Assembly (NCBI RefSeq): GCF_013170805.1 | Contig: NZ_CP051293.1 | Coordinates: 5,772,001-5,836,000, forward strand | Source of the DNA: Mesorhizobium sp. NZP2077 | GTDB lineage: Bacteria; Pseudomonadota; Alphaproteobacteria; Rhizobiales; Rhizobiaceae | Direction: 5' to 3' | DNA: 64,000 nucleotides | Shown: one piece after another, positions 44,862 to 64,000 of the stretch | Layout: each line of letters starts with the position of its first letter | How positions within the stretch are numbered: the stretch's first letter is position 1 | Notes under the pieces: model-generated | What the model was told of the DNA's origin: nothing | What the model saw: only the letters and a program-made list of their open reading frames with translations | Database searches by the model: none | Made by a program: the position numbers and the translations under genes

Positions 44862-44874
44862 CGGCGCCGGTTCC

Positions 44875-45738: not shown

Positions 45739-45766
45739 CTGCGTTACCGCCGCGATCCGGCCGTTG

Positions 45767-47766: not shown

Positions 47767-47798
47767 TTCAAAATCCTTTCCGGCAATTTATCGGGAAA

Positions 47799-48824: not shown

Positions 48825-48839
48825 CGCGATCGTCTCCGC

Positions 48840-50162
48840 TCAGCCGGCGAGGTAGAGGTCACGGATCTCCGAGACCGCGTTTTCGTGCGAGCTGAAGCCC
48901 TCGTAGCGAGCGAGCCTGCGGGCATGCATCGCCAGTTCCGGATAGGCGGCCGAGGTGACATAGCCGACCGACGAGCGCTTGACGAAATCCATCACCGAGA
49001 GCGGCCCATAGGTCCGCGCCCAGCGGCTGGTCGGCAGCACCGCATTGGGACCGAGGACGAAGTTGGCAAGCGTCACCGGCGTGTGCGGCCCCATGAGGAT
49101 TTCGGCCGCCTCGGTGATGTGCCCGAGATGCGCGAACGGCTCTTTCGAGAGGATTTCCAGATGTTCGGGTGCATAGTCGTTGATGAAGCGGTAGCTGTCT
49201 TGCAACGACGCAGTCAGCACGATGCCGCCGCGCTTGCCGGTCAGCACCGCTCGCGAGAATTCCACGCGCTGTTCGGTCATCCGCGACCAATGTTGCGGGA
49301 GTGCGGCAAGTGCTGCCTCGGCGACTTTGCGGCTGTGCGTCACCAGATAGGCCGAGGAATCCGGCCCGTGCTCGGCTTCGATCAAAAGGTCGAGCGCGGC
49401 AAGGCCCCCGTCGACACTGTCATCGGCAAAGATGATGGCTTCCGACGGACCGGCCGGAAGACCGGTGTTGATGATCGACGACAGCACGCTCTTGGCCGCG
49501 ACCACCCAAGGGCTGCCGGGGCCGACGATTTTCAGCGCGGGCTTCACCGTCTCGGTGCCGTAGGCGACGGCGGCGACGGCTTGGGCACCGCCACATTTGT
49601 ACACCGTCTGCACGCCGGCAAGGCGCGCGGCGACCAGGGTCGCCGCATCCACCGAACCGTCCGCTGTCGGCGGCGTCACGATGGCGATCTGCGGCACGCC
49701 GGCAATGACAGCCGGAACCGATGTCATCATCGTCACCGACGGAAAGGCGCCCTTGCCGCGCGGCACGTAAAGCGCGACCGAAGCGATCGGCGTGTACCGG
49801 TCACCGGCATAGGCACCCGGCCGAACTTCCTTGAGCCACATGGTTTCCGGCTTCTGCTCCTCATGGAAACGCCGGATATTGTCGATGCCGAACCCGATGC
49901 TTTCCACGACATCCTTTTCGACCTTGTCGAAGGCCGCGTCGAACTCGGCTTCCGAGACCTTCAGTCCGCCCTCAGCCACATTGGCCTTGTCGAGCTCCCT
50001 GGCGAAGCGGATCAAAGCGGCGTCGCCCTCGTCCTTGACGGCCTGGATGATCGGGCGGACCTTTTCGACGAAGACCGACAGATCGGTCTCGGCGCGTTTC
50101 AGCAGGCCGGCCCGCTGGGTGGCATCAAGCGATGACAGATCGTGGAAGCTGATGTCGGACAT
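48840..50162 (-). CDS. Histidinol dehydrogenase-family enzyme (HpsN-like)
   Basis: A 440-aa HisD-family four-electron dehydrogenase, oxidising a primary alcohol to a carboxylate. The ATG at 50162 has an AGAGGGA ribosome site. The segment LIEAEHGPDSS has Glu262 where the zinc-ligand Gln of HisD lies, while H265, EHLEI and the C-terminal SSHENAVSEIR are kept. The neighbours (SDR, Zn-alcohol dehydrogenase, GntR, sulfonate-type importer) are not histidine genes, and HpsN (sulfopropanediol 3-dehydrogenase) is the best-known such paralogue. The substrate assignment is inference. Confidence 0.75.
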   Translation of the reverse strand: MSDISFHDLSSLDATQRAGLLKRAETDLSVFVEKVRPIIQAVKDEGDAALIRFARELDKANVAEGGLKVSEAEFDAAFDKVEKDVVESIGFGIDNIRRFHEEQKPETMWLKEVRPGAYAGDRYTPIASVALYVPRGKGAFPSVTMMTSVPAVIAGVPQIAIVTPPTADGSVDAATLVAARLAGVQTVYKCGGAQAVAAVAYGTETVKPALKIVGPGSPWVVAAKSVLSSIINTGLPAGPSEAIIFADDSVDGGLAALDLLIEAEHGPDSSAYLVTHSRKVAEAALAALPQHWSRMTEQRVEFSRAVLTGKRGGIVLTASLQDSYRFINDYAPEHLEILSKEPFAHLGHITEAAEILMGPHTPVTLANFVLGPNAVLPTSRWARTYGPLSVMDFVKRSSVGYVTSAAYPELAMHARRLARYEGFSSHENAVSEIRDLYLAG

Positions 50163-50245
50163 GGATATTTCCCTCTTTTGCAACGCAATGTGCAGGCCGG
50201 TCACAGTGCGGAAGACCTTTGATTTCGAACCGGTGGCGAGCCGCC

Positions 50246-51019
50246 TCAGATCGACGCGAGAAAACCGCCATCCACCGGAATGGACTGGCCGGTTATGTAA
50301 GCTGCCGCATCCGAGGCAAGGAACACGGCAACGCCGTGCAGATCGCTGAGATCGCCGAAACGGCGCTGCGGGATCTTGGCCAGCATCGACTGCTGCCATA
50401 CCTCATTGCGGTAGAACACATCCGTCATCGCCGTCCTGAAATAGCCCGGAGCGATGGCGTTGACCCTGATGCCGAGATCCGCCCACTCCGCCGCCAGCGC
50501 CTGCGTCATGCCAAGCAGGCCCGACTTCGACGAGCCATAGGGTACCGCGGTGGGAATACCGACTTCTGAAGTCAGCGAGCAGAGATTGATGATGGCGCCG
50601 GGCCGGCCGGCGTCGCGCATCTGCTGCGCCGCGGCCTGGGCACAGAAGAACGCGCCTTTGAGATTGGTGTCGACGATCCGGTCCCACAATGCCTCGTCGA
50701 CGTCGAGCGAAGGTCGGACCTCTTCCATCCCGGCATTGTTGACGAGGATATCGAGACCGCCAAGCAGGCTGGCGGCCTCGGCGGTGGCGGTCCGGCAGCG
50801 ATCGACATCGGTGACGTCGAGGGCAACGGCATGCGCCACCCCGCCGGCGGCACCGATGGCCGTTATCGTCTCCTCGAGGGAGGCCAGGCTGCGCGCGGTG
50901 ACCGCGACGTCGGCGCCGGCAGCGCTCAGCGCCTCGGCGATGCTGCGGCCTATGCCGCGGCTGGCGCCGGTGACGAGCGCCTTCCTGCCGCCGAGATCGA
51001 ACAGAGAAGCATTGCGCAT
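50246..51019 (-). CDS. SDR family oxidoreductase
   Basis: A 257-aa classical short-chain dehydrogenase: TGASRGIG cofactor loop (residues 17-24), NNAG, catalytic Ser in NLCSLTSEVG and YGSSK (Tyr/Lys), C-terminal PVDGGFLASI. First gene of the operon with the HisD-like and Zn-dehydrogenase genes. Three different dehydrogenases on one operon suggests stepwise or stereo-inverting oxidation of a polyol such as dihydroxypropanesulfonate. Confidence 0.9.
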   Translation of the reverse strand: MRNASLFDLGGRKALVTGASRGIGRSIAEALSAAGADVAVTARSLASLEETITAIGAAGGVAHAVALDVTDVDRCRTATAEAASLLGGLDILVNNAGMEEVRPSLDVDEALWDRIVDTNLKGAFFCAQAAAQQMRDAGRPGAIINLCSLTSEVGIPTAVPYGSSKSGLLGMTQALAAEWADLGIRVNAIAPGYFRTAMTDVFYRNEVWQQSMLAKIPQRRFGDLSDLHGVAVFLASDAAAYITGQSIPVDGGFLASI

Positions 51020-51070
51020 GTGATCCTCCTTGCCGGTGTCGGTTCAATATCGAGACTAGCAGGTCAGGTT

Positions 51071-51090
51071 ACATATACAAGCATATACAA
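51071..51090. promoter_or_regulatory. Tandem TATACAA operator candidate
   Basis: CATATACAA occurs twice in tandem with 10-bp spacing (51072-51080 and 51082-51090), in the divergent region between the SDR operon and the aminotransferase gene. The second copy extends to GCATATACAA, identical to the one at 46951-46960. A likely HutC-type GntR operator, about 52 nt upstream of the SDR start. Confidence 0.5.
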
Positions 51091-51239
51091 AGCGTATCGG
51101 CTACGCTACTCCTGACAAGATTCGCCGCACCAGCGCCCGTCGGTGACCTGGCTTGCCCCGGTGACGATGCAGCGAACCCATTGCTTGAGAACCCGGCCGA
51201 AGACGGAAGTCGCTCGGCCAACCGCAAAGGAGCCCGCTC

Positions 51240-52343
51240 GTGTCGAAAGCTTCAGACATGGTTCGAACCGAAGTCACACGCCTGTCGCCCTACAATTCCG
51301 GACTCACAATCGCCGAGGTCATGCAGCGATACGCTCCGGTCAGGATCGCCAAGCTTGGTTCGAATGAAAACCCGCTTGGCCCGAGCCCGACGCTCGCCTC
51401 GATGATGCAGGCTGCCGCCGAGATGTTCCGGCTCTATCCGGATCCGGCCGGGCGCGAGCTGCGCCAGGCCATCGCCGCCAAATACGAAGTCGGCGAGGAT
51501 CAAATCATCCTCGGCAATGGCTCGGAGGATCTTCTCTCCGTCATCAGCCGTGCCGTGCTGCGGCCCGGCGATGCTGTCGTCACCCTCTATCCGTCGTTCC
51601 CGCTGCACGAGGACTACGCGACGCTGATGGGAGCGAGTGTCATCGGTGTAGCCGTCAACGACGATCTCACCATCAACGTCGACGCGCTGATCGAGGCGGT
51701 ACGCGGAGCCCCCCGCATGCTGCTGTTCTCGAATCCGATGAACCCGGTCGGCAGTTGGCTGTCGAGCAGTGATCTGTCGCGGGTGCTGGATGCGGTGAGC
51801 GACGAGACGCTTGTTGTCGTCGACGAAGCCTATGCCGAATATGCCGAGGGCGACGACTATGCCTCGTCCCTCTCTGACCTCGGCAAACGCGACCGGTCCT
51901 GGATCGTGCTGCGGACATTTTCCAAGGCGTTCGGGCTTGCGGGATTGCGCATCGGCTGCGGCATTGTCGGCGACCCGGAATTGCGCGCGCTGCTCGACCG
52001 GGTGCGCACGCCGTTCAACGCCAATGGCGTCGCGCAGGCCGCAGCATTGGCGGCGCTCGCCGATGAGGAACACCTCGCCAAGGTCGTCGCGCTGGCCAAG
52101 GCGGAGAGAACCCGTGTCGGGAATTTCCTTGCAGGCAAGGGCCTCGAAGTCGCCCCTTCACGAGGCAACTTCCTGTTCTTCAACTGCCGGCTTAATGCAT
52201 CAGCCTTCGCCGAGCGCCTGCTGCGCGAAGGCGTCATCGTCAAACCCTGGAAGCAGGAGGGCTTCGACAGCTATGTGCGCGTCAGCATCGGCTCGCCAGC
52301 GGAGAACGACCACTTCATGGCCGCGCTGATGCAACTGTTGTGA
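51240..52343 (+). CDS. Class I/II aminotransferase (HisC-like)
   Basis: A 367-aa fold-type I PLP aminotransferase of the histidinol-phosphate aminotransferase group. It starts at GTG 51240 with an AAAGGAG ribosome site. PLP lysine in RTFSKAFGLAG and substrate-binding Asn in LGSNENPLGPSP are present. It lies divergent from the HisD-like operon, sharing the operator-containing intergenic region, so it probably uses a product of that pathway as amino acceptor or donor rather than making histidine. Confidence 0.83.
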   Translation: MSKASDMVRTEVTRLSPYNSGLTIAEVMQRYAPVRIAKLGSNENPLGPSPTLASMMQAAAEMFRLYPDPAGRELRQAIAAKYEVGEDQIILGNGSEDLLSVISRAVLRPGDAVVTLYPSFPLHEDYATLMGASVIGVAVNDDLTINVDALIEAVRGAPRMLLFSNPMNPVGSWLSSSDLSRVLDAVSDETLVVVDEAYAEYAEGDDYASSLSDLGKRDRSWIVLRTFSKAFGLAGLRIGCGIVGDPELRALLDRVRTPFNANGVAQAAALAALADEEHLAKVVALAKAERTRVGNFLAGKGLEVAPSRGNFLFFNCRLNASAFAERLLREGVIVKPWKQEGFDSYVRVSIGSPAENDHFMAALMQLL

Positions 52344-52453: not shown

Positions 52454-53737
52454 ATGCTCGAAAACAGCCCGCCCCGGAGCCTCTACCGCGAAACGGCCGG
52501 CGGCACCGGCAACTACCCTGCCCTTGCCGGCGTGCAGCGAGCTAGGGTCGCCATTGTCGGCGGTGGCTTCACGGGCCTTTCGACCGCCCTGCACCTGGCG
52601 GAAGCCGGCGACGACGTTGTCGTGCTCGAAGCCCAGCAGCCGGGCTGGGGCGCGTCTGGCCGGAATGGCGGCCAGGTCAATCCCGGCCTCAAATACGATC
52701 CCGATACGATCGAGGCGATGTTCGGCCCCGAGCTTGGGCCGCGCATGATCGATTTCTCCTATGGCGCGCCGGATTTCACCTTCGGCCTCATCAGGCGCCT
52801 GTCGATCGCCTGCGAGGCGCGGCAGAACGGCACCATACGCGCGGCCATCCGGCCGAAGCCGGAAACCGCGGTGCGGACCACGGCCGCGCAATGCGAACGG
52901 CGGGGCATGCCGGTCCGCCTGCTGGACGCACAGGCGATGGCGGGGCGTACCGGAACGGACAGATACATATCCGGCATGTTCGACGCCCGCGGTGGCGACC
53001 TCCACCCCTTGAAATACGCACTTGGCCTGGCAGCCGCAGCCAAGAGCGCCGACGCGCGGGTATTCGGCGGCAGCGAAGTGCTTTCGCTGAAGAGGGAGGC
53101 CGGACGATGGCTTCTCAAAACCGCGAACGGCGCTGTCAGCGCCGAGAAGGTTCTTATCGCGACCAATGGCTATACCGGAGCCCTGTGGCCGGGTCTGGAG
53201 CAATCGCTGGTTCCGGTGTTCAGTGCGATCGCAGCGACCGAACCGCTTGCGCCGGCGGTCGCAGCCCAAATTCTCCCCGAAAGACCCGTGCTCTACGAGG
53301 CCGGCAACATCACCGTGTACTACCGCATCGACGCCGAGAGGCGCCTGCTCATGGGCGGCCGGGGGCCGATGAAACCCATCGGCGATGCTTCCGCCATCCG
53401 CTACCTCACCGACTATGCGCTGCGGCTCTGGCCGGCGCTTGCGGGAACACGCTGGACGTATGCCTGGAACGGCCGGGTGGCGATCACCAAGGACCATCTT
53501 CTGCACATTCACGAGCCGGAAGACGGCGTGCTGATCTGCCTTGGCTACAACGGCCGTGGCGTCGCCATGGCTTCGGCGATGGGCGCCGTCTTGGCGCAGC
53601 GCCTGCGCGGCGATGAGACGTCGCCGTTTCCCATGCCGACATCGCCGCTCAAGCCAATCCGGTTTCACCGCTTCTGGCCGCTGGGGGTAAAGGCCGCGAT
53701 CTTTTCGGGACGGCTGAAGGACCGCTTCGGCATCTAA
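52454..53737 (+). CDS. FAD-dependent oxidoreductase (PuuB-like)
   Basis: A 427-aa DAO-family flavoprotein with the nucleotide motif VAIVGGGFTGLSTALHLAEAG and the GASGRNGGQVNPGLKYD segment characteristic of gamma-glutamylputrescine oxidase-like enzymes. ATG 52454 is used; an open frame continues upstream to 52340 over the aminotransferase stop but has no homology. It lies downstream of the aminotransferase on the same strand and probably oxidises an amine or amino acid. Confidence 0.85.
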   Translation: MLENSPPRSLYRETAGGTGNYPALAGVQRARVAIVGGGFTGLSTALHLAEAGDDVVVLEAQQPGWGASGRNGGQVNPGLKYDPDTIEAMFGPELGPRMIDFSYGAPDFTFGLIRRLSIACEARQNGTIRAAIRPKPETAVRTTAAQCERRGMPVRLLDAQAMAGRTGTDRYISGMFDARGGDLHPLKYALGLAAAAKSADARVFGGSEVLSLKREAGRWLLKTANGAVSAEKVLIATNGYTGALWPGLEQSLVPVFSAIAATEPLAPAVAAQILPERPVLYEAGNITVYYRIDAERRLLMGGRGPMKPIGDASAIRYLTDYALRLWPALAGTRWTYAWNGRVAITKDHLLHIHEPEDGVLICLGYNGRGVAMASAMGAVLAQRLRGDETSPFPMPTSPLKPIRFHRFWPLGVKAAIFSGRLKDRFGI

Positions 53738-54591
53738 CGCGACAAGCCTGCCCGGCCTGACGGCCGCCGGATGGCGACGGCTTCGTCTCCTAACTTCGGA
53801 AATGCGTCGCCGGCCGGCGCGTTGGCCCAGCTCTGCAAGGTCTGGCCGCCGTCGATCAGCCAGTCGACGCCGGTGACGTGCCTTGCCTCGTCCGAGGCGA
53901 GGAAGGCTACGGCAGCCGCGACATCGTCGGGCTGGCCGATGCGGCGCAGCGGGATGCGGTCGGCGAAATGCTGGACGCTGCTCTTGAAATCGCCGGCGCC
54001 GGAAGCCGGCACGCCGAGCGTCGTCTCGATCACGCCGGGGCAGATGGCATTGACGCGTATGCCGTAAGGCGCGGCATCGAGCGCCGCGACCCGCGTCAGT
54101 CCGACCACGCCGTGTTTGGAGGCGACATAGCCGGCGCCACCCGCAAGCACGTCCCAACCGGCCATGGATGAGCCCATATTGACGATCGAGCCGCCGGTCC
54201 CGGCCTTGATCATCGCCTGGAGCGATGCCTGCAGGACGAGGAAGATGCCACGCAGATTGATGCGGATGATGGTGTCCCAATCCTCGACCGGCAGTTCGTG
54301 CACGGGAGCGACAGCGCCCGAAATGCCGGCATTGTTGAACACGACGTCCAGCCCGCCAAATGTCTCGACGGTCTTTTCGACAGCACCGCGCACATTCGTC
54401 TCGTCGGTGACGTCGGCTTCGATGGCGATGGTGCTGTCGCCGAGAGAGCGCGCCAGTTCGCGCGCCGCCGCGCCGTTGCGGTCGACAATGGCGACCCGCG
54501 CGCCTTCGTCGAGGAAACGCCGGACCGCCGCACTGCCTATGGCGCCGGCGCCGCCGGTGATAAGGACCTTCTTCTGGTCGAACCGTTTCAT
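53734..54591 (-). CDS. SDR family oxidoreductase
   Basis: A 285-aa short-chain dehydrogenase: TGGAGAIG cofactor loop, NNAGISG, catalytic Ser in MGSSMAGWDVLAGG and YVASK. An unusual C-terminal tail of about 30 residues follows the DGGQTLQ end. ATG at 54591 is chosen; it overlaps the epimerase stop by 4 nt. It ends 4 nt inside the convergent PuuB-like gene. Its promoter (epimerase start) carries a motif shared with the neighbouring cyclic-amide cassette. Confidence 0.88.
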   Translation of the reverse strand: MKRFDQKKVLITGGAGAIGSAAVRRFLDEGARVAIVDRNGAAARELARSLGDSTIAIEADVTDETNVRGAVEKTVETFGGLDVVFNNAGISGAVAPVHELPVEDWDTIIRINLRGIFLVLQASLQAMIKAGTGGSIVNMGSSMAGWDVLAGGAGYVASKHGVVGLTRVAALDAAPYGIRVNAICPGVIETTLGVPASGAGDFKSSVQHFADRIPLRRIGQPDDVAAAVAFLASDEARHVTGVDWLIDGGQTLQSWANAPAGDAFPKLGDEAVAIRRPSGRAGLSR

Positions 54592-55442
54592 CCCTCGGTC
54601 TCCGGCGTTGGATAGGAACGCCATGAATGCTGCGGCTCGAAGCCGAGCGTTTCGCGCGCGTGGATCGTATCGAGCACGGAACCGAAACCGGCAATCGGCC
54701 GCGACAGGGCGACGCCGGGATAGACCCGGCGCACCAGCGCTTCGGTTTCCTCTTCCATGAAGGTGTCGGCAGCGCTGAGCAGGACGCGAAGATGGCCGTC
54801 GCCTTGCCATTCGAGCGCCCGCAGGAAGCCTTGCCCGGCATCGCGCGCGTCGAGATAGGCCCACAGGTCGCGGGCGCTGTCGGCCGTGGCGCGGCGCGGA
54901 CCGACGCCGGCGAAGAAGGATTGCGGGGTCTGGATCCATGGCATGCGGATGCTGACCGCCGAAAAGGCACTTCTGCGCACCGCCGCGTCGACGATTTCCT
55001 CACCCAGCCATTTCGACAGGGCGTACGGGTCCTGCGCGCCAACCGGGTGGTTCATGTCGACCGGCAGATAGGGCGGAACGACCGTCTTCTCGAAGAAGGG
55101 ATAGCCGAAGACGCTGAAGGACGAGGCATAGACGAAGCGCCTGATGCCGGCCAAGGCGGCTGCCTCGACGACATTGTAGGCGGTCGCGACATTGGTCCTG
55201 AACACCTCGCCGCCGGCGCGCCCGGTCGGCCGCGGAATGGCCGCGATGTGCACGACAGCATCGCAATCTCGCACCAGCTGCAGGGTCGACCCCAGATCCG
55301 TCAGGTCAGCGGTGGCGTGCCGCCAAGGTGCCGCGCCCGGCGCCACAGTATCGATGCCCGTCACATCATGTCCGGCCGCGACCAGCGCCGCCGCGACATG
55401 GCGGCCAAGCAGGCCACTTGATCCGGTAACGATCGTCCTCAT
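54588..55442 (-). CDS. NAD(P)-dependent epimerase/dehydratase family protein
   Basis: A 284-aa extended SDR: TGSSGLLG nucleotide loop, HIAAIPRPTG, YASSFSVFG and catalytic DPYALSK (Tyr/Lys). It is the first gene of a two-gene operon with the SDR downstream. The upstream region (55481-55498) contains one copy of the promoter motif also found before the cysteine hydrolase, PF06684 and BMP-transporter genes, suggesting a shared regulon. Confidence 0.85.
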   Translation of the reverse strand: MRTIVTGSSGLLGRHVAAALVAAGHDVTGIDTVAPGAAPWRHATADLTDLGSTLQLVRDCDAVVHIAAIPRPTGRAGGEVFRTNVATAYNVVEAAALAGIRRFVYASSFSVFGYPFFEKTVVPPYLPVDMNHPVGAQDPYALSKWLGEEIVDAAVRRSAFSAVSIRMPWIQTPQSFFAGVGPRRATADSARDLWAYLDARDAGQGFLRALEWQGDGHLRVLLSAADTFMEEETEALVRRVYPGVALSRPIAGFGSVLDTIHARETLGFEPQHSWRSYPTPETEG

Positions 55443-55480
55443 GTCTCAGCCCTCGGCCCGGCTTGGTCCGGACAATCTGA

Positions 55481-55498
55481 CATCATTGATGGTCATAC
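55481..55498 (-). promoter_or_regulatory. Shared operator motif, copy 1
   Basis: The minus strand reads GTATGACCATCAATGATG, 39 nt before the epimerase ATG. It matches 14 of 18 positions of the copy at 55642-55659 and resembles those at 59356 and 59481. Candidate site for the MarR protein at 56367. Confidence 0.45.
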
Positions 55499-55641
55499 AA
55501 ATCGAACACCTGATCGGTGTTTCTTGTCAACGTGATTTCGTGGCAAAAAGCAATGTAGGCCTGTCTCGGAGCGGCTTGCGCAGCCTCGGCAATCAGGCTT
55601 TGCTTCGAACGGGATTGACTTGGCATCTGCGACAGTTTTTT

Positions 55642-55659
55642 GTATGAGTATCAACGATC
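55642..55659 (+). promoter_or_regulatory. Shared operator motif, copy 2
   Basis: GTATGAGTATCAACGATC lies 17-34 nt upstream of the cysteine hydrolase ATG (55676), overlapping the expected promoter-proximal region. Shares ATCAACGA with the copy at 59481. Confidence 0.45.
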
Positions 55660-55675
55660 GACAAAGGAGTCCGCC

Positions 55676-56320
55676 ATGGCCGTGGACGTTTTTTCCTCAC
55701 ATCGGCACGATGACGCGATGCGCCTTGATCCGCAACGCGCAGCCATTATCGTCATCGATATGGTCAACGAGTTCTGCAAACCGGGCGGGGCCATGGTCCT
55801 GCCGGGATATGAGGCGCTGGTGGCGCCGCAGCTGGCTGTTATCGAGGCGGCGCGCGCGCGCGGCGTGCCGGTGATCTGGGTTCATGATGCACACCGGCCG
55901 GGCATGCGCCGCGAGCGCGAATGGGTCAAGCGCACGCCGCATTGCGTGGAGGGCAGCTGGGGACCGGAAATCATCGAAGACCTCGGCGCCCGCGATGACG
56001 AGATCCATGTCATCAAGCGGCGCTATTCGGCCTTCTTTCAGACCGACCTCGATCTAACGCTGAAGGACATGCAGGTCGACCAGTTGGTCATCTTCGGCGT
56101 GGTCACCAACATTTGCGTGCGTTCGACCGTCCACGACGCCTTTTTCCAGGGCTATGAAGTGGTGGTGCCGAGCGATTGCTGCGCGGCGACGGGACCGCGC
56201 GAACAGGAAAGCTCGCTCTACGACATAGCAACGCATTTCGGCTTGGTCAGCGATTCGGCTGATGTCGTCGCGGCCCTTCGTGATGGGACGTCGCTGCAAC
56301 CGACTGAAGTCGCGGCCTGA
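55676..56320 (+). CDS. Cysteine hydrolase (isochorismatase family)
   Basis: A 214-aa isochorismatase-fold hydrolase with the full amidase triad: D28 (VIDMVNEF), K114 (VIKRRY) and nucleophile C147 (GVVTNICVR, with the cis-peptide VT). Relatives such as maleamate amidohydrolase, N-carbamoylsarcosine amidase and biuret hydrolase split linear amides. ATG 55676 with a AAAGGAG ribosome site is used. It is the first gene of the cassette, with a MarR regulator and an enamidase-like amidohydrolase after it, so a late linear-amide step in ring degradation is likely. Confidence 0.87.
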   Translation: MAVDVFSSHRHDDAMRLDPQRAAIIVIDMVNEFCKPGGAMVLPGYEALVAPQLAVIEAARARGVPVIWVHDAHRPGMRREREWVKRTPHCVEGSWGPEIIEDLGARDDEIHVIKRRYSAFFQTDLDLTLKDMQVDQLVIFGVVTNICVRSTVHDAFFQGYEVVVPSDCCAATGPREQESSLYDIATHFGLVSDSADVVAALRDGTSLQPTEVAA

Positions 56321-56366
56321 ACGATCCAAAGCCAGTGGCATCCGAGACAGGCAACAGGAGTGCGGT

Positions 56367-56915
56367 TTGACGACCGAAACGAAATCCGAGAAAAGCACGA
56401 CACCGAAGCGGCAACGTGGCAACGCGGAACCACTGACGCGCGAGCAGGTGCTGGAGCGATACGCCGGGACCGGCTACGCGTTGGACGAGCACCCGGCGCA
56501 CGTCATCCGCAAGGCGCATCAGCGCGCAACGCTGCGTTTCCAACAGGTCATGACCGGCGAAGATCTTTCGCCGACCCAGTTTGCAGCCCTTGCCACGATC
56601 CTCAAACATGGCGAAGTCTCGCAGAACCATCTCGGCCGGCTGACGGCGATGGATCCGTCAACCATCAGCATCGTCATGCGCAAGCTGCTTAAACACGAAC
56701 TGATCACGCGCAGCGCCTCCGACACCGACCAGCGCCTGTCGATGATCGCCCTGACCGAAAAAGGCACCGAATACACGCTCGAGCGGCTCGCACGCAGCGT
56801 CGAGGTCGGCCGGCGCTTCCTGTCGCCGCTGTCACCCGCCGAGCAGGCGACGCTACTTCGCCTGCTCAAGCGCATCAATGACGACGATCCATCGAATGGC
56901 GACAGCGGCAAGTAG
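56367..56915 (+). CDS. MarR family transcriptional regulator
   Basis: A 182-aa MarR regulator. TTG at 56367 with a CAGGAG ribosome site is chosen because the frame has no other good start. Winged helix (LSPTQFAALATILKHGEVSQ, DPSTISIVMRKLLKHELI, RSASDTDQRLSMIALTEKG) at about residues 70-145. It lies between the cysteine hydrolase and enamidase genes; MarR proteins control nicotinate and aromatic catabolism in other bacteria. Probably binds the shared motif found in four nearby promoters. Confidence 0.86.
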   Translation: MTTETKSEKSTTPKRQRGNAEPLTREQVLERYAGTGYALDEHPAHVIRKAHQRATLRFQQVMTGEDLSPTQFAALATILKHGEVSQNHLGRLTAMDPSTISIVMRKLLKHELITRSASDTDQRLSMIALTEKGTEYTLERLARSVEVGRRFLSPLSPAEQATLLRLLKRINDDDPSNGDSGK

Positions 56916-56956
56916 GCCGCGTCCAGACCTTTCCATACCAGCAGAAGTGAGATCCG

Positions 56957-58150
56957 ATGTCGTCCGACCCCAAGTCGTCTGCCAGCACGCTCGTCGTCCG
57001 CAATATCGGCCTCATGCTGAGCGGCGACCTCGGCCAGCCGATCCTCGACGCCGACACCATCGTCGTGACCGATGGGCGCATTACAGGCATTGGCAAGGCT
57101 GATGACGTCGACAGCGGCAATGCGGCGACCATCATCGACGCGATGGGCTGCGCGGTCGCACCGGGGCTCATCGACAACCATGCTCATCCGGTGGCCGGCG
57201 ACTGGACGCCACGGCAGAACCAGATCGGCTGGATGGATTCGACCGTGCATGGCGGCGTCACCACGATCATTTCGGCAGGAGAGGTCCACACGCCGGGCCG
57301 CCCGCGCGACCTGGTCGGCCTGAAGGCACTGGCGATCGCGGCGCAGCGCACCTTCTCCAATTTCCGCCCCAACGGCATGAAGATCCTGGCCGGCGCGCCC
57401 ATCCTGGAACACGGCCTGGTCGAGGATGACTTCCGATACCTCGCCGAGGCCGGCGTGACACTTGTCGGCGAGGTCGGTCTTGGCGGCGTCAAGGACGGTC
57501 CGACCGGCCGGCAGATGATCGCCTGGGCGCGCAAATACGGCATGACCTCGATGACCCACACAGGCGGCCCGTCCCTGCCCGGCTCCGGCCGCATCGGTGC
57601 CGATGTCGTGCTGGAAGTCGACGCCGACGTCGTTGCCCACGTCAACGGCGGGCCGACGGCGCTTCCCGAGGCCGAGATCCGGCAGATCTGCGAGAACGGC
57701 TCGCGCGCGCTTGAAATCGTCCACAATGGCAATCTGCGAACGGGGCTGTTCGTGCTCGACCTCGCAAGGCAGCGCGGCGAGCTTGCGCGCGTCATCCTCG
57801 GCACCGACAGCCCGGCCGGATCCGGCGTACAGCCGCTCGGCATTTTGAGGACGCTGACCATGCTGGCTTCGTTGGGCGGCATCGCGCCGGAAGTGGCATT
57901 CTGTCTCGCCAGCGGCAACACGGCGCGCGTGCGCGGACTGGCCGACCGCGGCATCATCGAGGCCGGCCGCGCCGCCGACCTGATCTTCATCGATCAGGCA
58001 ATGGGCGGCGCCGGTGACGGGCTGCTCGACAGCGTCGCGCTCGGCAATCTGCCTGGCATCGGCATGGTCGTCATCGATGGCGAGGTGCGGACCGGCCGGA
58101 GCCGCAACACCCCGCCGGCAATGCGGGTGCCGGAAGTTCGGGCTGCCTGA
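56957..58150 (+). CDS. Amidohydrolase, enamidase-like
   Basis: A 397-aa amidohydrolase-superfamily enzyme. The metal-binding pair is H75/H77 in NHAHPVAGDWTP; further motifs are MTHTGGPSLPGS, HVNGGPTALPE and GTDSPAGSGVQPLG (metal Asp). The GMKILAGAPILEHGLVEDD and VNGGPT segments resemble enamidase, which opens 6-oxo-tetrahydronicotinate in anaerobic nicotinate degradation. ATG 56957. A ring-opening cyclic amidase role fits the cysteine hydrolase upstream. Hydantoinase-like activity is an alternative. Confidence 0.8.
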   Translation: MSSDPKSSASTLVVRNIGLMLSGDLGQPILDADTIVVTDGRITGIGKADDVDSGNAATIIDAMGCAVAPGLIDNHAHPVAGDWTPRQNQIGWMDSTVHGGVTTIISAGEVHTPGRPRDLVGLKALAIAAQRTFSNFRPNGMKILAGAPILEHGLVEDDFRYLAEAGVTLVGEVGLGGVKDGPTGRQMIAWARKYGMTSMTHTGGPSLPGSGRIGADVVLEVDADVVAHVNGGPTALPEAEIRQICENGSRALEIVHNGNLRTGLFVLDLARQRGELARVILGTDSPAGSGVQPLGILRTLTMLASLGGIAPEVAFCLASGNTARVRGLADRGIIEAGRAADLIFIDQAMGGAGDGLLDSVALGNLPGIGMVVIDGEVRTGRSRNTPPAMRVPEVRAA

Positions 58151-58153
58151 CGG

Positions 58154-58738
58154 TCAGCTCACACCGTCAACCCCGACGATCTTGTCCTTGGTCAGCCCGC
58201 CGACGCGCGGATGCGGCCTGCCGGAATCGGTGACGGCGATGGCGACGACGATCTCGTCGGCGCGCGGTGCATCGGGAACGCGGACCTCCATGCCGTCGAA
58301 ATGGCTGCGCACCTTCGCCGCGTCCTTGTGGCCGAGCGGAATGTCGAGCGGCACGCCGAGACCGCCGCGCTTCTTCGATGAGGGAATGAGCGCGGCGCCC
58401 TTGCCCAGCACGTCGCGGAACGGAGCGCCGAGCGTCGGGTGAAGGATGGCGGCGGCATGTTCCAGCTCGCCGTCGGCGCCAACGGCGGCTGCCTTGCCGA
58501 AACTCTCGACCTCACCGCCGGCAATGCCAAGCGCAGCCACCGCACGCCCGGGCAGGAGGTCGCCCAGCGCTTCGCCGATCGCGCTCAACGCTGACAGATC
58601 CTCGACAAACGTGCCGGCATAAGGGTTGCGGATCACCGCGATCGCCGCGGCACGCCGCGTCGGCGGGTCGACGGGGCGTCCGCCTTCGATCCGGGTCTCC
58701 TCGACGACGGTTATGATGCGGCGGATTTCCACGCTCAT
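58154..58738 (-). CDS. PF06684 (amino acid synthesis family) protein, copy B
   Basis: A 194-aa protein of the PF06684 family (formerly DUF1185, chorismate-mutase-like fold known from a structure, function unproven). It shares with the upstream gene the blocks NPYAGTFVED, GELEHAA, PSSKKRGG, VRSHFDGMEVRVPDAPRADE and RVGGL at the same positions. Its ATG overlaps the upstream stop by 4 nt. Two divergent copies in tandem suggests a hetero-oligomer. The gene is 3 nt from the convergent enamidase-like stop. Confidence 0.82.
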   Translation of the reverse strand: MSVEIRRIITVVEETRIEGGRPVDPPTRRAAAIAVIRNPYAGTFVEDLSALSAIGEALGDLLPGRAVAALGIAGGEVESFGKAAAVGADGELEHAAAILHPTLGAPFRDVLGKGAALIPSSKKRGGLGVPLDIPLGHKDAAKVRSHFDGMEVRVPDAPRADEIVVAIAVTDSGRPHPRVGGLTKDKIVGVDGVS

Positions 58739-59319
58739 CGCAATCCGTCCTCGCCCTTAATGTCGGCCGCCGCCAGACCGCCGACGCGCGCATGAACGCG
58801 CGCGCCGGTCGTCATCGCCAGGATGACCGCCATCTCGTCGCTGCGCGGCGCGTCACCAACGCCGATTTCGATCGCGTCGAAATGGCTGCGCACATAGGAA
58901 GCGTTGATGTGGGTGATCGGAATGTCGATGCGCGTCCCGGGGCCGCCGACCTTCTTGGTCGAAGGCACGATGGCCTTGGCGTCGCCAAGAAGTTCGCGCA
59001 TCGCATAGCCGCCCGGATTGTGCCAGAGCGCGCCGTGTTCAAGTTCGCCGGCAGCGCCGACGATGGCACCCTTGCCATAGCCTTCGACAGCGGCGACGCC
59101 GTCGCCCAAGGCATCGATCAGGCGCCGCGCCATTTCGAGGCCGAGCGGCTTCAGATCCTCCATGAAGCCGGCGATCTCCTCGACGTAGCGTCCGGCAAAA
59201 GGGTTGGCGATGACGGCGACGATGGCGCCGCGCTTGGGCGGGCGTGCCGCGGGCGGCCCGCCCTCATGGAAGATCTCCTCGACCTGGACCAGAAATTTCC
59301 TGACCACCACAGCTGGCAT
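58735..59319 (-). CDS. PF06684 (amino acid synthesis family) protein, copy A
   Basis: A 194-aa paralogue of the neighbouring gene: NPFAGRYVEEIA, GELEHGALWHNPGG, PSTKKVGGPGT, VRSHFDAIEIGVGDAPRSDE and ARVGGLAAADIKG. With ATG 59319 (GAAGGA ribosome site) both copies have equal length. It differs from copy B by a WHNPGG in place of ILHPTL. It is first in the two-gene operon, preceded by one motif copy (59356-59373), divergent from the BMP transporter. Role in ring opening or hydrolysis is an inference from context. Confidence 0.82.
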   Translation of the reverse strand: MPAVVVRKFLVQVEEIFHEGGPPAARPPKRGAIVAVIANPFAGRYVEEIAGFMEDLKPLGLEMARRLIDALGDGVAAVEGYGKGAIVGAAGELEHGALWHNPGGYAMRELLGDAKAIVPSTKKVGGPGTRIDIPITHINASYVRSHFDAIEIGVGDAPRSDEMAVILAMTTGARVHARVGGLAAADIKGEDGLR

Positions 59320-59355
59320 TGCGCGTATCCTTCGTCCCGTCACTCGTGAAAACTC

Positions 59356-59373
59356 GTTAGAGTATCAACAATT
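59356..59373 (+). promoter_or_regulatory. Shared operator motif, copy 3
   Basis: GTTAGAGTATCAACAATT, 37 nt upstream of the PF06684 copy A start. GAGTATCAAC is identical to that in copy 2. Confidence 0.45.
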
Positions 59374-59480
59374 ATGCATCGCGATATTTGTCAAGCGCAG
59401 AGGTGGAAGGACGCGGGTGACGGGCCTGAGAAAACTGCATCGGATGACGATTGACAGCCTGTTTAGCCGCTCCTAAACTC

Positions 59481-59498
59481 ATATGACCATCAACGAAC
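59481..59498 (+). promoter_or_regulatory. Shared operator motif, copy 4
   Basis: ATATGACCATCAACGAAC, 78 nt upstream of the BMP-type binding-protein ATG. TATGACCATCAA is identical to copy 1. Confidence 0.45.
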
Positions 59499-59575
59499 TT
59501 GCCAGCATTCCGGCGATATGTGGGGGATGGTCAAGGCGTGGCTTCAAAAGCTGAAAAAAGCTGAAGGGGAATAAC

Positions 59576-60580
59576 ATGACAAGGGCGCTCAAGAGTTTGT
59601 TTCTGGCCGGCACGATGCTGGCCGTTTCGTTGGGATCGGCCGCCGCACAGGCCAAGGTTTCGGTGGCCGCCATCTCGGGATATTTTGCCCAGGGCTTTGG
59701 CGTTTCGATCGTCAACGGCCTCAACAAGGCCAAGACCGATTTCGGCATCGACCTCAAGCTGGTCGACACCGGCAATCGCGCTTTGGACTATGAGGAGCAG
59801 TTCGAAAACCTCGCCAAGGGCAAACAGTACGACCTCATCTTCGTGATGGGCTGGGAGCTGGTGGATTCGCTGCAGAAGGTCAGCAAGGAATACCCTGACC
59901 AGCGCTTCGTCTTCATCGATGGCGTGCTCGACAACCCCAAGATGATCTACGCCAACTTCGCCGAAGAACAGGGCTCCTTCGTCGCTGGTGCGCTGGCCAG
60001 CATGATCGAGGCCAAGGGCAGCGAATTTCCCAAAATCGGCGACGGCAAGGCAATCGGCTTCGTCGGCGGCCGCGACATCCCGGTGATCCGCAACTTCCTC
60101 GGCGGCTACGAGCAAGGTGCCAAATACGCAGCGCCCGATGTGAAGGTGAACTCGGTGTTCGCCGGCACCTTTGATGACCCGGCCAAGGGCAGCGAGCTTG
60201 CCCAGGCGCTGTACGGCCAAGGTTCCGACATCGTCTACAACGTCGCCGGCCCGACCGGCGAAGGCGTGATGCAGGCGAGTGCCGCCGCCGACAAATATTC
60301 GATCGGCGTCGATATCGACATGTGCGGCACGGCCCCCGGAAATGTGCTCGGCAGCATGCTGAAGCGCGGCGACATCGCCGTCTACACGCTGATCAAGGAC
60401 GAGGTCGGCGGCAACAAGGTCACCGCCGGCACCCGCACCTTCGACCTGGCCTCTGGCGGCGTCGAGTTCAAGGTCTGCGACGACATCGCGCCGAAGATCC
60501 CGGCCGACGTGACGACCAAGCTGGACGAGATCAAGAAGGGCATCCTCGACGGCAAGATCGTGATCGCCAAGGCGAAATAA
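59576..60580 (+). CDS. BMP family ABC transporter substrate-binding protein
   Basis: A 334-aa periplasmic protein of the basic membrane protein (BMP/PnrA) family, with a signal peptide to AAAQA near residue 26. Family segments: VSIVNGLNKAKTDFG, DLIFVMGWELVDSLQKVS, FVGGRDIPVIRNFLGGYEQG and NVAGPTGEGVMQ. Such proteins bind nucleosides or other small rings. It heads an importer with the ATPase at 60692 and permeases at 62254 and 63285, consistent with uptake of a nucleobase-like or cyclic amide compound for the adjacent cassette. Confidence 0.9.
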   Translation: MTRALKSLFLAGTMLAVSLGSAAAQAKVSVAAISGYFAQGFGVSIVNGLNKAKTDFGIDLKLVDTGNRALDYEEQFENLAKGKQYDLIFVMGWELVDSLQKVSKEYPDQRFVFIDGVLDNPKMIYANFAEEQGSFVAGALASMIEAKGSEFPKIGDGKAIGFVGGRDIPVIRNFLGGYEQGAKYAAPDVKVNSVFAGTFDDPAKGSELAQALYGQGSDIVYNVAGPTGEGVMQASAAADKYSIGVDIDMCGTAPGNVLGSMLKRGDIAVYTLIKDEVGGNKVTAGTRTFDLASGGVEFKVCDDIAPKIPADVTTKLDEIKKGILDGKIVIAKAK

Positions 60581-60614
60581 GCCAGCAGCAGCGCATCCCT
60601 CCCAAGAAAGCGCT

Positions 60615-60642
60615 ACACTGATCCGCCGCGGCGGATCAGTGT
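60615..60642. promoter_or_regulatory. 28-bp perfect palindrome between binding-protein and ATPase genes
   Basis: A perfect 14+14-bp palindrome: left arm ACACTGATCCGCCG (60615-60628) and its complement immediately after (60629-60642). No T-run follows. It lies 35 nt after the BMP-protein stop, the same arrangement as the hairpin at 6247, and probably protects or separates the binding-protein message. Confidence 0.65.
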
Positions 60643-60691
60643 CCAATCTTCGAAAGCTCGCAATCTGCGAGAGCCCCAACCTGCGAGAGCA

Positions 60692-62257
60692 ATGGTGTCG
60701 AACGCGCCGGGGTCACCGACCCTCCACAACACTGCCGCGATGGCCGTCGAGCTGACGGCTATCACCAAGCGTTTTGGCGCCTTCATTGCCAATGACGGCA
60801 TCGATCTTGCCGTGCGCCGGGGCGAAATCCACGCCATTATCGGCGAAAATGGCGCCGGCAAGACGACGCTGATGAACATCCTGTTCGGCCTGCTGCAGCC
60901 GGACGAAGGCTCGATCCGGCTGAATGGCGAGGCGACGGTGGTCGCCGACCCGGCGGCGGCCATCAAGGCGGGGCTCGGCATGGTGCACCAGCATTTCAAG
61001 CTGGTGCCTTCGCTCTCGGTCGCAGACAATGTGTTTCTCGGCATGGAAATCCGTCGACACGGGCTGATCGACCACGCTGCACAGATCGCGCGCACCAGCG
61101 AATTGTCGAAGCGCTTCGGGCTGCATGTCGATCCAACCGAGCGCGTCGGGCTGCTTTCGGTCGGCATCGAGCAGCGCATCGAAATCCTGAAAGTTCTGGT
61201 GCGCGGCGCCCGAACCATCATCCTGGACGAGCCGACCGCCGTGCTGACTCCACAGGAGAGCCGCGAACTGTTCCAGACGCTGCGCAGCTTTGTCGCCGAG
61301 GGCATGACGGTGATCTTGATCTCGCACCATCTGGAAGAGGTGATGGAGGTGTCCGACACGGTGGCGGTGCTGCGCAATGGCCGCAAGGTCGCGACCCGCC
61401 CGACATCGGAGCTCGATAAGGACGAGCTGGTGCGCATGATGGTCGGCCGCGAGGTCAGTTTCGACCGGCGGCCGCGCGCTCAGTTGCAGGGAGCCGTGAT
61501 CCTTGAGGTCAAGGATTTGTGGGCGCGTGATGATCGCCGCTTGCCGGCCCTTCGCAATGCCAGTTTCACTGTCCGCTCCGGCGAGGTGGTGGGGATTGCG
61601 GGCGTCGCTGGCAATGGGCAGACGGAACTGGCGGAAGTGCTTTCGGGCCTGCGCCCGGCAAGCCATGGCGAAGCCCGGCTGAAGGGCCAGGACCTCACCA
61701 CGCTCTCCACCGCCGCAATCCGCGAGGCGGGCCTTGCCCATGTTCCGGGCGACCGCATGGTGCGCGGGGTCGATCGCAATGCGTCGATCGCGGCAAACAC
61801 GCTGATGGGCCGCCAGCATCGCGCGCCGTGGAGCCGCAATGGCGTGCTCGACTGGAAGGCGATTGCCGGAAATGCCGGCGCGCTGATCAAGAATTTCGAT
61901 ATCCGCGCGCAAGGAGCGGGCGATGCCGTCAAGCGGCTGTCGGGCGGCAACATCCAGAAGGTGGTGCTGGCACGCGAATTCACCAATGGCGCCGACTTCC
62001 TGCTGATCGATCAGCCGACGCGCGGCGTCGATATCGGCGCCCAGGAGGCCATCCATGACGAGATCATGCGCCAGCGCGCGGCCGGCCGTGCCATCCTCTT
62101 GATTTCCGTGCAGCTTGATGAACTGGCAGCGCTCGCCGACCGCATCCTGGTGATGTTCAATGGACGGATCATGGGCGAAGTCGCCGGCGACGATGCCGAC
62201 GAAGACAGGATCGGCATGATGATGGCGGGTGTTACGCCGCAGCTGGAGCCCGCATGA
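60692..62257 (+). CDS. BMP/RbsA-type ABC transporter ATPase (two domains)
   Basis: A 521-aa tandem ATPase: the first domain has Walker A GENGAGKTT (about residues 51-59) and Walker B IILDEPTAVLTP; the second has a degenerate P-loop VAGNGQTEL and signature LSGGNIQKV, Walker B FLLIDQPTRGVD. This layout is typical of nucleoside and ribose importers. ATG 60692 with a GAGAG site; ATG 60740 is an alternative nearer the ATPase domain start. Its stop overlaps the next permease ATG. Confidence 0.92.
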   Translation: MVSNAPGSPTLHNTAAMAVELTAITKRFGAFIANDGIDLAVRRGEIHAIIGENGAGKTTLMNILFGLLQPDEGSIRLNGEATVVADPAAAIKAGLGMVHQHFKLVPSLSVADNVFLGMEIRRHGLIDHAAQIARTSELSKRFGLHVDPTERVGLLSVGIEQRIEILKVLVRGARTIILDEPTAVLTPQESRELFQTLRSFVAEGMTVILISHHLEEVMEVSDTVAVLRNGRKVATRPTSELDKDELVRMMVGREVSFDRRPRAQLQGAVILEVKDLWARDDRRLPALRNASFTVRSGEVVGIAGVAGNGQTELAEVLSGLRPASHGEARLKGQDLTTLSTAAIREAGLAHVPGDRMVRGVDRNASIAANTLMGRQHRAPWSRNGVLDWKAIAGNAGALIKNFDIRAQGAGDAVKRLSGGNIQKVVLAREFTNGADFLLIDQPTRGVDIGAQEAIHDEIMRQRAAGRAILLISVQLDELAALADRILVMFNGRIMGEVAGDDADEDRIGMMMAGVTPQLEPA

Positions 62258-63297
62258 TGAGCGACCGTTTGCGCGCCTTTTCCGGCCAGATCATCGCCGT
62301 GGGCGTAGCCTTGCTGCTGGGGGCGATCATCATCCTCCTGGTCGGCGAAAGCCCTGTGCATGTCTTGATGACGTTGCTGCACGGCGCCTTTGGCGACCAG
62401 GAAAAGATTGCCGGCACCCTGCTGCAGACGACGCCGATCCTGATCTGCGGCGTCGCGGCCTGCATCGGCCTGCGCGGCGGCATGTTCAATGTCGGCATCG
62501 AGGGCCAGCTGTTCCTCGGCGGTTTTGCCGCCGCCTGGGTCGGCTTCAGCTTTTCCCTGCCCGCTGGCATTCATACGCTGGCGGCACTGGCGCTCGCGGT
62601 CGTCGCGGGTGCGGCCTGGGTCGCCATTCCCGCCTATTTCCGCGCCCGCTACAACACCAACGAAGTCGTCTCGACGATCCTGTCTAACTACATCGCCGTG
62701 CTGCTGACCTCCTATTTCACCATCTTCCTGTTCAAGCGGCCCGGCGGCTGGTCGGAGACGCCGCCGATCCTGGCGACAGCCTATCTGCCGGAGATTTTTT
62801 CCTTCTCGCGGCTGAACTGGGGGCTGGTGATTGGCCTGCTGCTGGCGGTCGGCGTGGCGCTCGTGTTCCGCTACACCAGCTGGGGCTACGACGTGACCAT
62901 GGTCGGGTCAGCGCCGAAATTCGCCGAATATGGCGGCGTCAACGTGAAACGGCAGGGCTTTGTCGTGCTGCTGCTTTCGGGCGCCGTCGGCGGCCTCGCC
63001 GGCGGCGTCGAGACGCTCGGCGTGCATCACCGGTTCATGGAGGGCTTTGCTCCAGGCTTCGGTTTCGACGGGCTGATCGCCGCCCTGCTCGCCAATGGCT
63101 CGCCGGTCGCCACCATCCTCACGGCGCTGTTCTTCGGCGCGCTGCGCAGTGGGTCGTTGCTGCTCGAGGTCGACACCAGCGCCTCGCGCGAAATCATCAC
63201 CGTGATCCAGGCGCTGATCATCCTCAGCGTCTCGGCGCAGGTTTTGATCAAACGCCGCGGCGACAGCCAGGCGGGGGAGCGGCGATGGAAATTCTAG
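62254..63297 (+). CDS. BMP-type ABC transporter permease
   Basis: A 347-aa BPD_transp_2-family permease. Recognisable segments: GVAACIGLRGGMFNVGIEGQ, YNTNEVVSTILSNYIAVLL and VGSAPKFAEYGGVNVKRQGF. About eight to ten membrane spans. ATG 62254 overlaps the ATPase stop (ATGA). The following permease starts inside its end. It forms the membrane channel with the second permease. Confidence 0.92.
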   Translation: MMSDRLRAFSGQIIAVGVALLLGAIIILLVGESPVHVLMTLLHGAFGDQEKIAGTLLQTTPILICGVAACIGLRGGMFNVGIEGQLFLGGFAAAWVGFSFSLPAGIHTLAALALAVVAGAAWVAIPAYFRARYNTNEVVSTILSNYIAVLLTSYFTIFLFKRPGGWSETPPILATAYLPEIFSFSRLNWGLVIGLLLAVGVALVFRYTSWGYDVTMVGSAPKFAEYGGVNVKRQGFVVLLLSGAVGGLAGGVETLGVHHRFMEGFAPGFGFDGLIAALLANGSPVATILTALFFGALRSGSLLLEVDTSASREIITVIQALIILSVSAQVLIKRRGDSQAGERRWKF

Positions 63298-64000
63298 ACA
63301 AGCTGATCAACGTCGCGCTGATCGCCGCGACGCTGCGCACCACCGCGCCAATTCTCCTGGTGGCGCTTGGCGGGTCGTTCACCACCAAGGCCGGCATCTT
63401 CAACATCGGCCTCGAGGGGCAGATGCTGGCCGGCGCCTTCTTCGCCGTCATCGGCTCGATCTGGACGGGCTCGGCATTCGTAGGCGTCGCCTGCGGCGTC
63501 GCCGCGGCGCTTGCCTTCGCGCTCGCCTTTGCCGTGCTGGTGGTGACGTTCCGGGCCAATGAAGTGGTCGTCGGCCTGGCGCTCAACATCCTTGCTGGCG
63601 GCATGACGATCTCGCTTATGAAAGCGATTTTAGGCACGCGCGGATCGATCGTCGGCCACGGCATTGTCGGCCTGCCCAAGGTGCAGATACCCGGCGCCCA
63701 GGCGCTTCTCGGCTCATGGGCGCCATTGATCTCGGGCTTCACGCCGATCGTCTATGTCGCGTTCATCGCGGTGCCGCTGCTGGTGCTGTTCTACAACCGC
63801 ACCCGGCTCGGCCTCTATATCCGCGTCGTCGGCGAAAAGCCCGAGGCCGCCGAGGCGCTTGGCATCTCTATCACCCGCGTCCGCTACATCGCCTCGCTGC
63901 TGTGCGGATTGCTGGCGGGGCTGGCCGGTGCGCATCTGTCGCTCGGCTACATCACCATGTTCACCGAGAACATGTCATCGGGCCGCGGCTTCATGGCGGT
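63285..64000 (+). CDS. BMP-type ABC transporter permease, partial
   Basis: The last gene, cut by the window end: 238 codons are visible. MEILDKLINVALIAATLRTT begins at ATG 63285 with a GGGGGAG ribosome site and overlaps the previous stop by 13 nt. FTTKAGIFNIGLEGQML, FRANEVVVGLALNILAGG and RVVGEKPEAAEALGI are hallmark blocks of the second BMP permease. No stop is reached. Confidence 0.9.
   Translation, partial: MEILDKLINVALIAATLRTTAPILLVALGGSFTTKAGIFNIGLEGQMLAGAFFAVIGSIWTGSAFVGVACGVAAALAFALAFAVLVVTFRANEVVVGLALNILAGGMTISLMKAILGTRGSIVGHGIVGLPKVQIPGAQALLGSWAPLISGFTPIVYVAFIAVPLLVLFYNRTRLGLYIRVVGEKPEAAEALGISITRVRYIASLLCGLLAGLAGAHLSLGYITMFTENMSSGRGFMA

Follow-up and report, generated by a model that had tools for sequence, protein, structure and literature searches.

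A candidate N-riboside cassette combining an enamidase-like protein, a PF06684 pair and nucleoside hydrolases in Mesorhizobium

The solved structure 2VUN, the enamidase of Eubacterium barkeri, is among the closest known relatives of one of the proteins described below. A ring-derived enamide is also hydrolysed in the trigonelline pathway of Acinetobacter baylyi, which differs in that the ring is opened by an oxygenase and succinate semialdehyde is the product; its cluster contains TgnF, a relative of the PF06684 family. In the excerpted text of PMC7913881, TgnF stimulates the TgnE-dependent oxidation of succinate semialdehyde. Nicotinate clusters based on 6-oxo-1,4,5,6-tetrahydronicotinate (THON) have been described in Azorhizobium caulinodans and in Bradyrhizobiaceae, with a flow from THON to glutarate in A. 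caulinodans, according to the excerpt of PMC3511419. Here we report a locus of Mesorhizobium sp. NZP2077, a bacterium with a 7.69-Mb genome, whose closest named relative is M. carmichaelinearum (98% identical enamidase). The locus lies within, and extends beyond, C1:5772001-5836000 (C1 is contig NZ_CP051293.1), a stretch of 64,000 nucleotides indicated below as the window.

The unit is composed of 13 genes: epim, SDR2, CysH, MarR, ENA, AA2, AA1, BMP, ATPase, two permeases, NH1 and NH2 (Table 1). It resembles the THON clusters in the enamidase and in the AA1/AA2-type PF06684 pair, often found in loci linked to 6-hydroxynicotinate reductase, but it lacks this reductase, the molybdenum dehydrogenase and UPF0280, and carries a nucleoside importer, nucleoside hydrolases, CysH and sugar-type dehydrogenases instead. 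PF02608, PF02653 and PF01156 are shared with systems made of BMP/PnrA nucleoside importers and nucleoside hydrolases; here, however, they are coupled to an enamidase and PF06684, and not to purine or pyrimidine salvage. Unlike 2VUN, the predicted enamidase ENA sits in a nucleoside-type cassette. With about even confidence, we propose that all these genes form a single regulated cassette that serves to catabolise an N-riboside, with degradation of the base through THON to glutarate. Its enzymes are relatives of those of the known nicotinate pathway, and the feeding of such a pathway by a riboside appears to be undescribed.

Gene content and conservation of the cassette

By using ENA as query in named genomes, 36 loci were collected (L012-L047 range): 35 of them are referred to as type B, while the Xenophilus locus (L046) is of a different type. 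All 13 genes are present in 31 of the 35 type-B loci, and each of the incomplete ones (L016, L026, L027 and L033, with 9.0-15.6 kb of sequence) reaches a contig end; in L033 the AA2 match is split in two pieces. In Ochrobactrum sp. CM-21-5 and in a second isolate (L043, L044), the block of importer and nucleoside hydrolases is found on the other side, inverted. The cassette is also present in genomes G087, G209 and G248, is reordered but contiguous in three genomes of the genus coded g79 (G225, G099 and G130), and in a fourth one (G244) is split, some 400 kb separating the importer/nucleoside hydrolase module from the rest. In all, rearranged versions are seen in Ochrobactrum and in two further families.

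Within a survey of 249 genomes of the order, orthologues of NH1 (E <=1e-70) were found in 8 and of CysH (E <=1e-50) in 9. CysH and ENA are present in all 8 NH1 genomes, which cover three family codes (f1, f50 and f16). The ninth CysH genome (G098, locus L077) lacks BMP and nucleoside hydrolases; besides CysH it has ENA, AA1, AA2 and a Liv-type importer. NH1 was found in three of 398 genomes sampled from the phylum, namely its own, G209 and G248, so that no occurrence outside the order was seen.

A preliminary description of this DNA had placed the block between positions 55442 and 64000. The genes it named all exist, as open frames with strong family matches; that they form one unit is supported by their being kept together, reordered across families, with a common operator-like site, and the co-occurrence of enamidase, PF06684 and cysteine hydrolase across genomes is borne out by the 31 complete loci. 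Both limits turned out to be too narrow: SDR2 and epim, further upstream on the minus strand, also belong to the unit, which at the other end continues through permease 2 and then NH1 and NH2.

Table 1. Features of the cassette: window positions, unless C1 is indicated, and supporting matches.
Feature	Position	Strand	Match or context
SDR2, short-chain dehydrogenase	53734..54612	-	PF13561, 219 bits; beside cassette in 35/35 type-B loci
epim, NAD-dependent epimerase family, uronate-dehydrogenase-like	54588..55442	-	PF01370, 96 bits; in 35/35 type-B loci
Operator-like site, exact TCRTTGATGGTCAWA	55483..55497	+	epim|CysH intergenic region
Second, weaker site copy, 2 mismatches	55643..55657	-	upstream of CysH
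CysH, isochorismatase-fold cysteine hydrolase	55676..56320	+	Isochorismatase PF00857, 158 bits
MarR-family regulator	56367..56915	+	PF01047, 44.5 bits
ENA, enamidase-like amidohydrolase	56957..58150	+	375 bits to enamidase 2VUN
AA2, PF06684 protein, 194 aa	58154..58738	-	240 bits (cut-off 27)
AA1, PF06684 protein, 194 aa	58735..59319	-	243 bits (cut-off 27)
Operator-like site, exact TCRTTGATGGTCAWA	59482..59496	-	AA1|BMP intergenic region
BMP (PnrA-like) substrate-binding protein	59576..60580	+	PF02608, 180 bits
ABC ATPase	60692..62257	+	PF00005, 168 bits
Permease 1	62254..63297	+	PF02653, 116 bits
Permease 2	63285..64000, on to C1:5836271 past window end	+	PF02653, 109 bits
NH1, nucleoside hydrolase, outside window	C1:5836282-5837295		PF01156, 249 bits
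NH2, nucleoside hydrolase, outside window	C1:5837292-5838239		PF01156, 296 bits

Genes lying further upstream (HisD-like, SDR1, aminotransferase, FAD oxidase) or downstream (formylglutathione-hydrolase-like, flavin oxidoreductase) were rejected as members, as they accompany only part of the loci. The window region 44079-52343 is a separate cluster, which adjoins the cassette in some of the loci only; its genes presumably code for an ABC importer, a GntR-like regulator, a HisD-like dehydrogenase, an SDR and a HisC-like aminotransferase. Just past the window (L006:6266-9310), what we take to be an S-formylglutathione-hydrolase-like gene adjoins a presumed trimethylamine-dehydrogenase-like flavoprotein gene, which suggests a separate N-demethylation unit.

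An optional sugar module (substrate-binding protein, IolE-like TIM barrel, two permeases and MocA) is located by epim/SDR2 in 14 of the 35 type-B loci, within the flanks examined, a proportion for which it was rejected as an essential part; it also occurs in G087 and in all four g79 genomes that have the cassette. Sites where it lies next to epim/SDR2 or CysH include L055:12226-17523, L078, L090-L093, L020 and L029, and L093 also has an additional nucleoside-hydrolase-like gene. A search of the own genome for the IolE-like TIM barrel gave no match at E 1e-20, an empty result which is not conclusive alone. Three of the four g79 cassettes also carry additional FAD and ApbA-like proteins.

A common operator-like site and the genes for glutarate

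The site TCRTTGATGGTCAWA, probably bound by the MarR protein, emerged when the intergenic stretch between epim and CysH was compared with that between AA1 and BMP. Its only two exact matches in the genome are these two places within the cassette; allowing one mismatch, one third place is added, and a reversed-pattern control gave 2 matches at up to one mismatch. Four places in the window match at up to two mismatches, against 0.15 expected; four such places were reached in none of 100 shuffles, and three of the four fall in the cassette. The pattern TCATTGATGGTCATA, at up to three mismatches, precedes CysH in 37 of 42 loci and BMP in 36 of 41, and was absent upstream of NH1 (0 of 38 loci), ENA (0 of 42) and MarR (0 of 42). 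For CysH, the five exceptions are L043, L044 and three g79 loci in which another gene comes first; for BMP, they are L036, L038, L040, L043 and L044. Since the loci are related, these counts are not independent, and more weight is carried by the recurrence of the site in g79 and G087.

Outside the cassette, 13 sites with one mismatch are present in eight cassette genomes, and nine were examined. At three of them, in G225, G099 and G130, TCGTTGATGGTCTAA lies directly upstream of a gene for glutaryl-CoA dehydrogenase, followed by a CoA-transferase gene; this pair is absent at the other six. The three dehydrogenases are 84.5-86.5% identical to that of G244, where the dehydrogenase/transferase pair is contained inside the cassette itself, between AA2 and MarR/CysH. 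The G244 dehydrogenase scores 622 bits to the solved glutaryl-CoA dehydrogenase 3gnc, and the transferase 588 bits to the succinate--glutarate CoA-transferase model, below its cut-off of 750. A glutaryl-CoA dehydrogenase gene also adjoins AA2 and MarR in G058 (L094). Some 1.2 kb from the off-cassette site of the own genome there is a 93-aa fragment that shares 42% identity with the CoA-transferase. Gene content, linkage, the common site and its occurrence ahead of glutaryl-CoA genes in three genomes are direct observations; the near-identical site before the dehydrogenase, together with the enamidase phylogeny reported below, points to a THON-to-glutarate route.

Enamidase, PF06684 pair and the nicotinate route

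ENA aligns to 2VUN over residues 11-393, and the HxH, E, H, H and D residues, which form the metal site in 2VUN-like enamidases, are aligned. The match is full-length, the motifs NHAHP and HVNGG are present, and the amidohydrolase was correctly recognized as an enamidase relative. It is the only close enamidase in its genome, where the next best matches have E values of 5.8e-6 and weaker. In the ENA tree, window-type sequences form one clade, and the sister clade holds the reductase-linked ENAs together with those of the g79 cassettes; a single clade of all 18 type-B ENAs, a group defined by gene context, was rejected by the approximately unbiased (AU) test (p-AU 0.022). The 18 type-B AA2 proteins fall on one side of a branch, with support 99/96. 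It seems, from these trees, that the enamidase was exchanged between the reductase-linked clusters and the type-B cassettes, and that AA2 stayed with the cassette. Such an exchange suggests that both kinds of cluster have the same substrate.

A distant group of enamidases (L069-L072, L086), 44-48% identical to the window ENA, has a single PF06684 gene directly adjacent; no reductase was found within 20 kb of them, and they probably act on another enamide substrate. At L080:4826-6870, in genome G181, an enamidase has as neighbours genes which, from their sequence starts, we take to be kynureninase- and tryptophan-dioxygenase-like.

AA1 and AA2 are 45% identical, their frames overlap by 4 bases, and they are transcribed from the strand opposite to that of the enamidase and the importer. 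AA1 is closer to BB2672 (3byq, 194 bits) than to SPO0826 (2qtp, 155 bits), and its predicted model has a predicted local distance difference test score (pLDDT) of 90.6. In the order-level survey, at least 50 of 62 reductases have a PF06684 gene within 5 kb, and at least 18 have two. Of 43 closer ENAs, at least 21 are accompanied by such a gene at 10 kb or less, the other 22 being without one among the matches listed; the same is true, within 5 kb, for at least 6 of 11 distant ENAs. PF06684 genes thus often adjoin enamidases, in agreement with the association first noticed in the window. Among the matches listed, 55 of 150 PF06684 genes are near neither reductase nor ENA, so that the family also has other contexts. 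Two further PF06684 genes of the own genome (L050:4625-9518 and L051:5049-11681) have as neighbours presumed hydrolases, dehydrogenases and monooxygenases of luciferase-like or FAD type, a setting which recalls the ring-cleavage clusters of the trigonelline type. The statement that the family has no proven reaction holds in part: a lead exists in the relative TgnF, for which the excerpt of PMC7913881 reports a stimulating role.

A second locus of the own genome, L049 (C1:592001-612000), contains one PF06684 gene, a MarR gene (38% identical to the window MarR) and molybdenum dehydrogenase subunits, without an enamidase. It also includes genes which we take to code for a nicotinamidase-like protein and, by the family of the Xenophilus homologue, for a UPF0280 relative. 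A further gene, at C1:601342-602880, is presumed to be the 6-hydroxynicotinate reductase, from its family and the excerpt of PMC3511419; none of the family models matched it. The reductase is present in 62 of the 249 order genomes and a closer ENA (>=60% identical) in 42, both being found in 36. Four genomes of the same genus (G069, G105, G136 and G229) have the reductase and no enamidase match at E 1e-40. No reductase match was found in any type-B locus tabulated, the own-genome copy being elsewhere, nor, with an E limit of 0.001, in any of the four g79 genomes that carry the cassette, while G000 and G087 matched in the same search. In these four genomes THON would therefore be made without the reductase, the simplest explanation being that the ring enters already reduced.

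Substrate, proposed route and alternatives

The PF02608 binding protein, the ATPase and the two PF02653 permeases make up a BMP/PnrA-type importer; against the putative B6 transporter model NF047927, BMP scores 43.7 bits, not reaching the cut-off of 400. The DxDxxxDD motif is present in the own NH1 and NH2 and in all orthologues looked at (17 of 17 for each), NH1 being unusual in showing DVDSAGDD at this position in 17 of 17. Both BMP-type binding proteins and PF01156 hydrolases belong to nucleoside families, and the yeast group I nucleoside hydrolase URH1p is about equally efficient on nicotinamide riboside and on uridine, according to the excerpt of PMC11241417. Since a nucleoside-type importer is linked to nucleoside hydrolases, an N-riboside is probably imported. 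A free cyclic amide or imide, originally suggested as the imported substrate, is disfavoured by the nature of the importer and by the two nucleoside hydrolases that follow outside the window. The pathway and substrate had also been called undescribed: this stands for the whole cassette, of which no description was found in the literature searched, whereas the ring chemistry points to known compounds, THON and glutarate.

The cysteine hydrolase residues D28, K114 and C147 are intact, as reported earlier, with the start at 55676 (motif-scan positions minus 12). The best solved relative of CysH is RutB 8bkd (105 bits); it scores 117 bits against the RutB NCBIfam equivalog and 60 bits against the nicotinamidase model NF008623, reaching neither cut-off (378 and 174, respectively). 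Being nearer to ureidoacrylate and biuret hydrolases than to nicotinamidase, it may act after ring opening. The solved relatives of epim are 4id9, 6mfh and 3ay3, with uronate dehydrogenase among them; by family, epim and SDR2 look like sugar or alcohol dehydrogenases.

The most likely substrate would be a reduced nicotinamide riboside, for example 6-hydroxy- or 6-oxo-1,4,5,6-tetrahydronicotinamide riboside, for which hydrated NAD(P)H could be the source; a title cited in PMC4231035 equates hydrated NADH with 6-hydroxy-1,4,5,6-tetrahydronicotinamide adenine dinucleotide. The BMP-type ABC system would import the riboside, and NH1/NH2 would cleave the N-glycosidic bond. As a third step, epim and SDR2 would oxidise the released sugar; alternatively, one of the two would convert a C6 hydroxyl of the ring to the lactam. 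CysH would then hydrolyse a carboxamide, on the ring or after its opening. ENA would hydrolyse the lactam to an enamine or 2-formylglutarate, and the AA1/AA2 pair would take this reactive intermediate towards glutarate semialdehyde or glutarate. Finally, glutarate would enter metabolism through CoA-transferase and glutaryl-CoA dehydrogenase. C6 oxidation, with epim or SDR2 as candidates, ribose removal and amide hydrolysis would convert hydrated nicotinamide riboside to THON. Every reaction, the order of the third to sixth steps, the role of MarR and the riboside itself are predictions from sequence. The riboside-to-glutarate reading is considered moderately likely. A more specific version is put forward tentatively, as a rather unlikely possibility: a dedicated route for damaged NAD(P)H, in which environmental hydrated or 6-oxo reduced nicotinamide ribosides would be imported, stripped of ribose and amide, opened by the enamidase and oxidised through glutarate, with PF06684 acting on the enamine or formyl intermediate.

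Several observations weigh against the riboside-to-glutarate reading. NH1 is without the HDP histidine in 17 of 17 orthologues, and NH2 has it in 17 of 17; CysH is closer to ureidoacrylate/biuret-type hydrolases than to nicotinamidases. The type-B AA2 proteins form a clade of their own, so the PF06684 step may differ from that of the nicotinate route. The p-AU value is modest, and by the time the AU test was made the split was already apparent from an initial tree. With one mismatch allowed, the site matches in 13 of 14 genomes searched, with or without the cassette, so that single off-cassette matches mean little; no site was found directly upstream of the glutaryl-CoA dehydrogenase gene in G244 or G058. 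Lastly, the own genome has the reductase-type nicotinate locus L049 elsewhere, so that in this genome ENA could also serve nicotinate.

This last point leads to an alternative which we regard as unlikely, namely that the substrate is nicotinamide or nicotinate riboside, NH1/NH2 releasing the base, the molybdenum dehydrogenase and reductase of L049 making THON from it, and the window ENA opening THON. The activity of a nucleoside hydrolase on nicotinamide riboside (excerpt of PMC11241417) is a precedent for it. It also agrees with the single close enamidase of the own genome and with the reductase carried outside the cassette by the own genome, G209, G248 and G087, but it was set aside as a general explanation because no reductase was found in the four g79 cassette genomes. 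Moreover, four of seven same-genus genomes have the reductase without a close ENA, CysH or NH1, so that the reductase locus works there without the cassette, and CysH, next to the nicotinamidase-like gene of L049, would be a second amidase.

Quite unlikely is also the import of another N-glycoside, such as a plant- or cofactor-derived pyridone carboxamide riboside, which would be reduced by a non-homologous reductase and then follow the path from ENA to glutarate. The sugar module by epim/SDR2 hints at sugars other than, or besides, ribose, and the additional FAD and ApbA-like proteins of three g79 cassettes fit the same proposal, but in the tabulated type-B cassettes no common oxidoreductase besides epim/SDR2 was seen, in a non-exhaustive comparison. 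A hydrolytic pyrimidine-nucleoside route, with ENA opening uracil or dihydrouracil, a RutB-like CysH cutting the ureido product and PF06684 replacing RutC for aminoacrylate, is improbable: CysH is RutB-like and the nucleoside hydrolases are pyrimidine-like, but CysH is far under the RutB cut-off, the g79 ENAs are within the clade of reductase-linked ENAs, and the near-identical site before glutaryl-CoA genes in G225, G099 and G130 indicates a C5 product.

If the riboside-to-glutarate reading is true, the candidate substrates are narrowed from any N-heterocycle to a small set of ribosides, and nucleoside import would be linked to pyridine-ring catabolism. The orphan family PF06684 would then get a concrete step, following the hydrolysis of an enamide in both kinds of cluster. 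It would also suggest that soil bacteria could eat reduced or damaged nicotinamide nucleosides.

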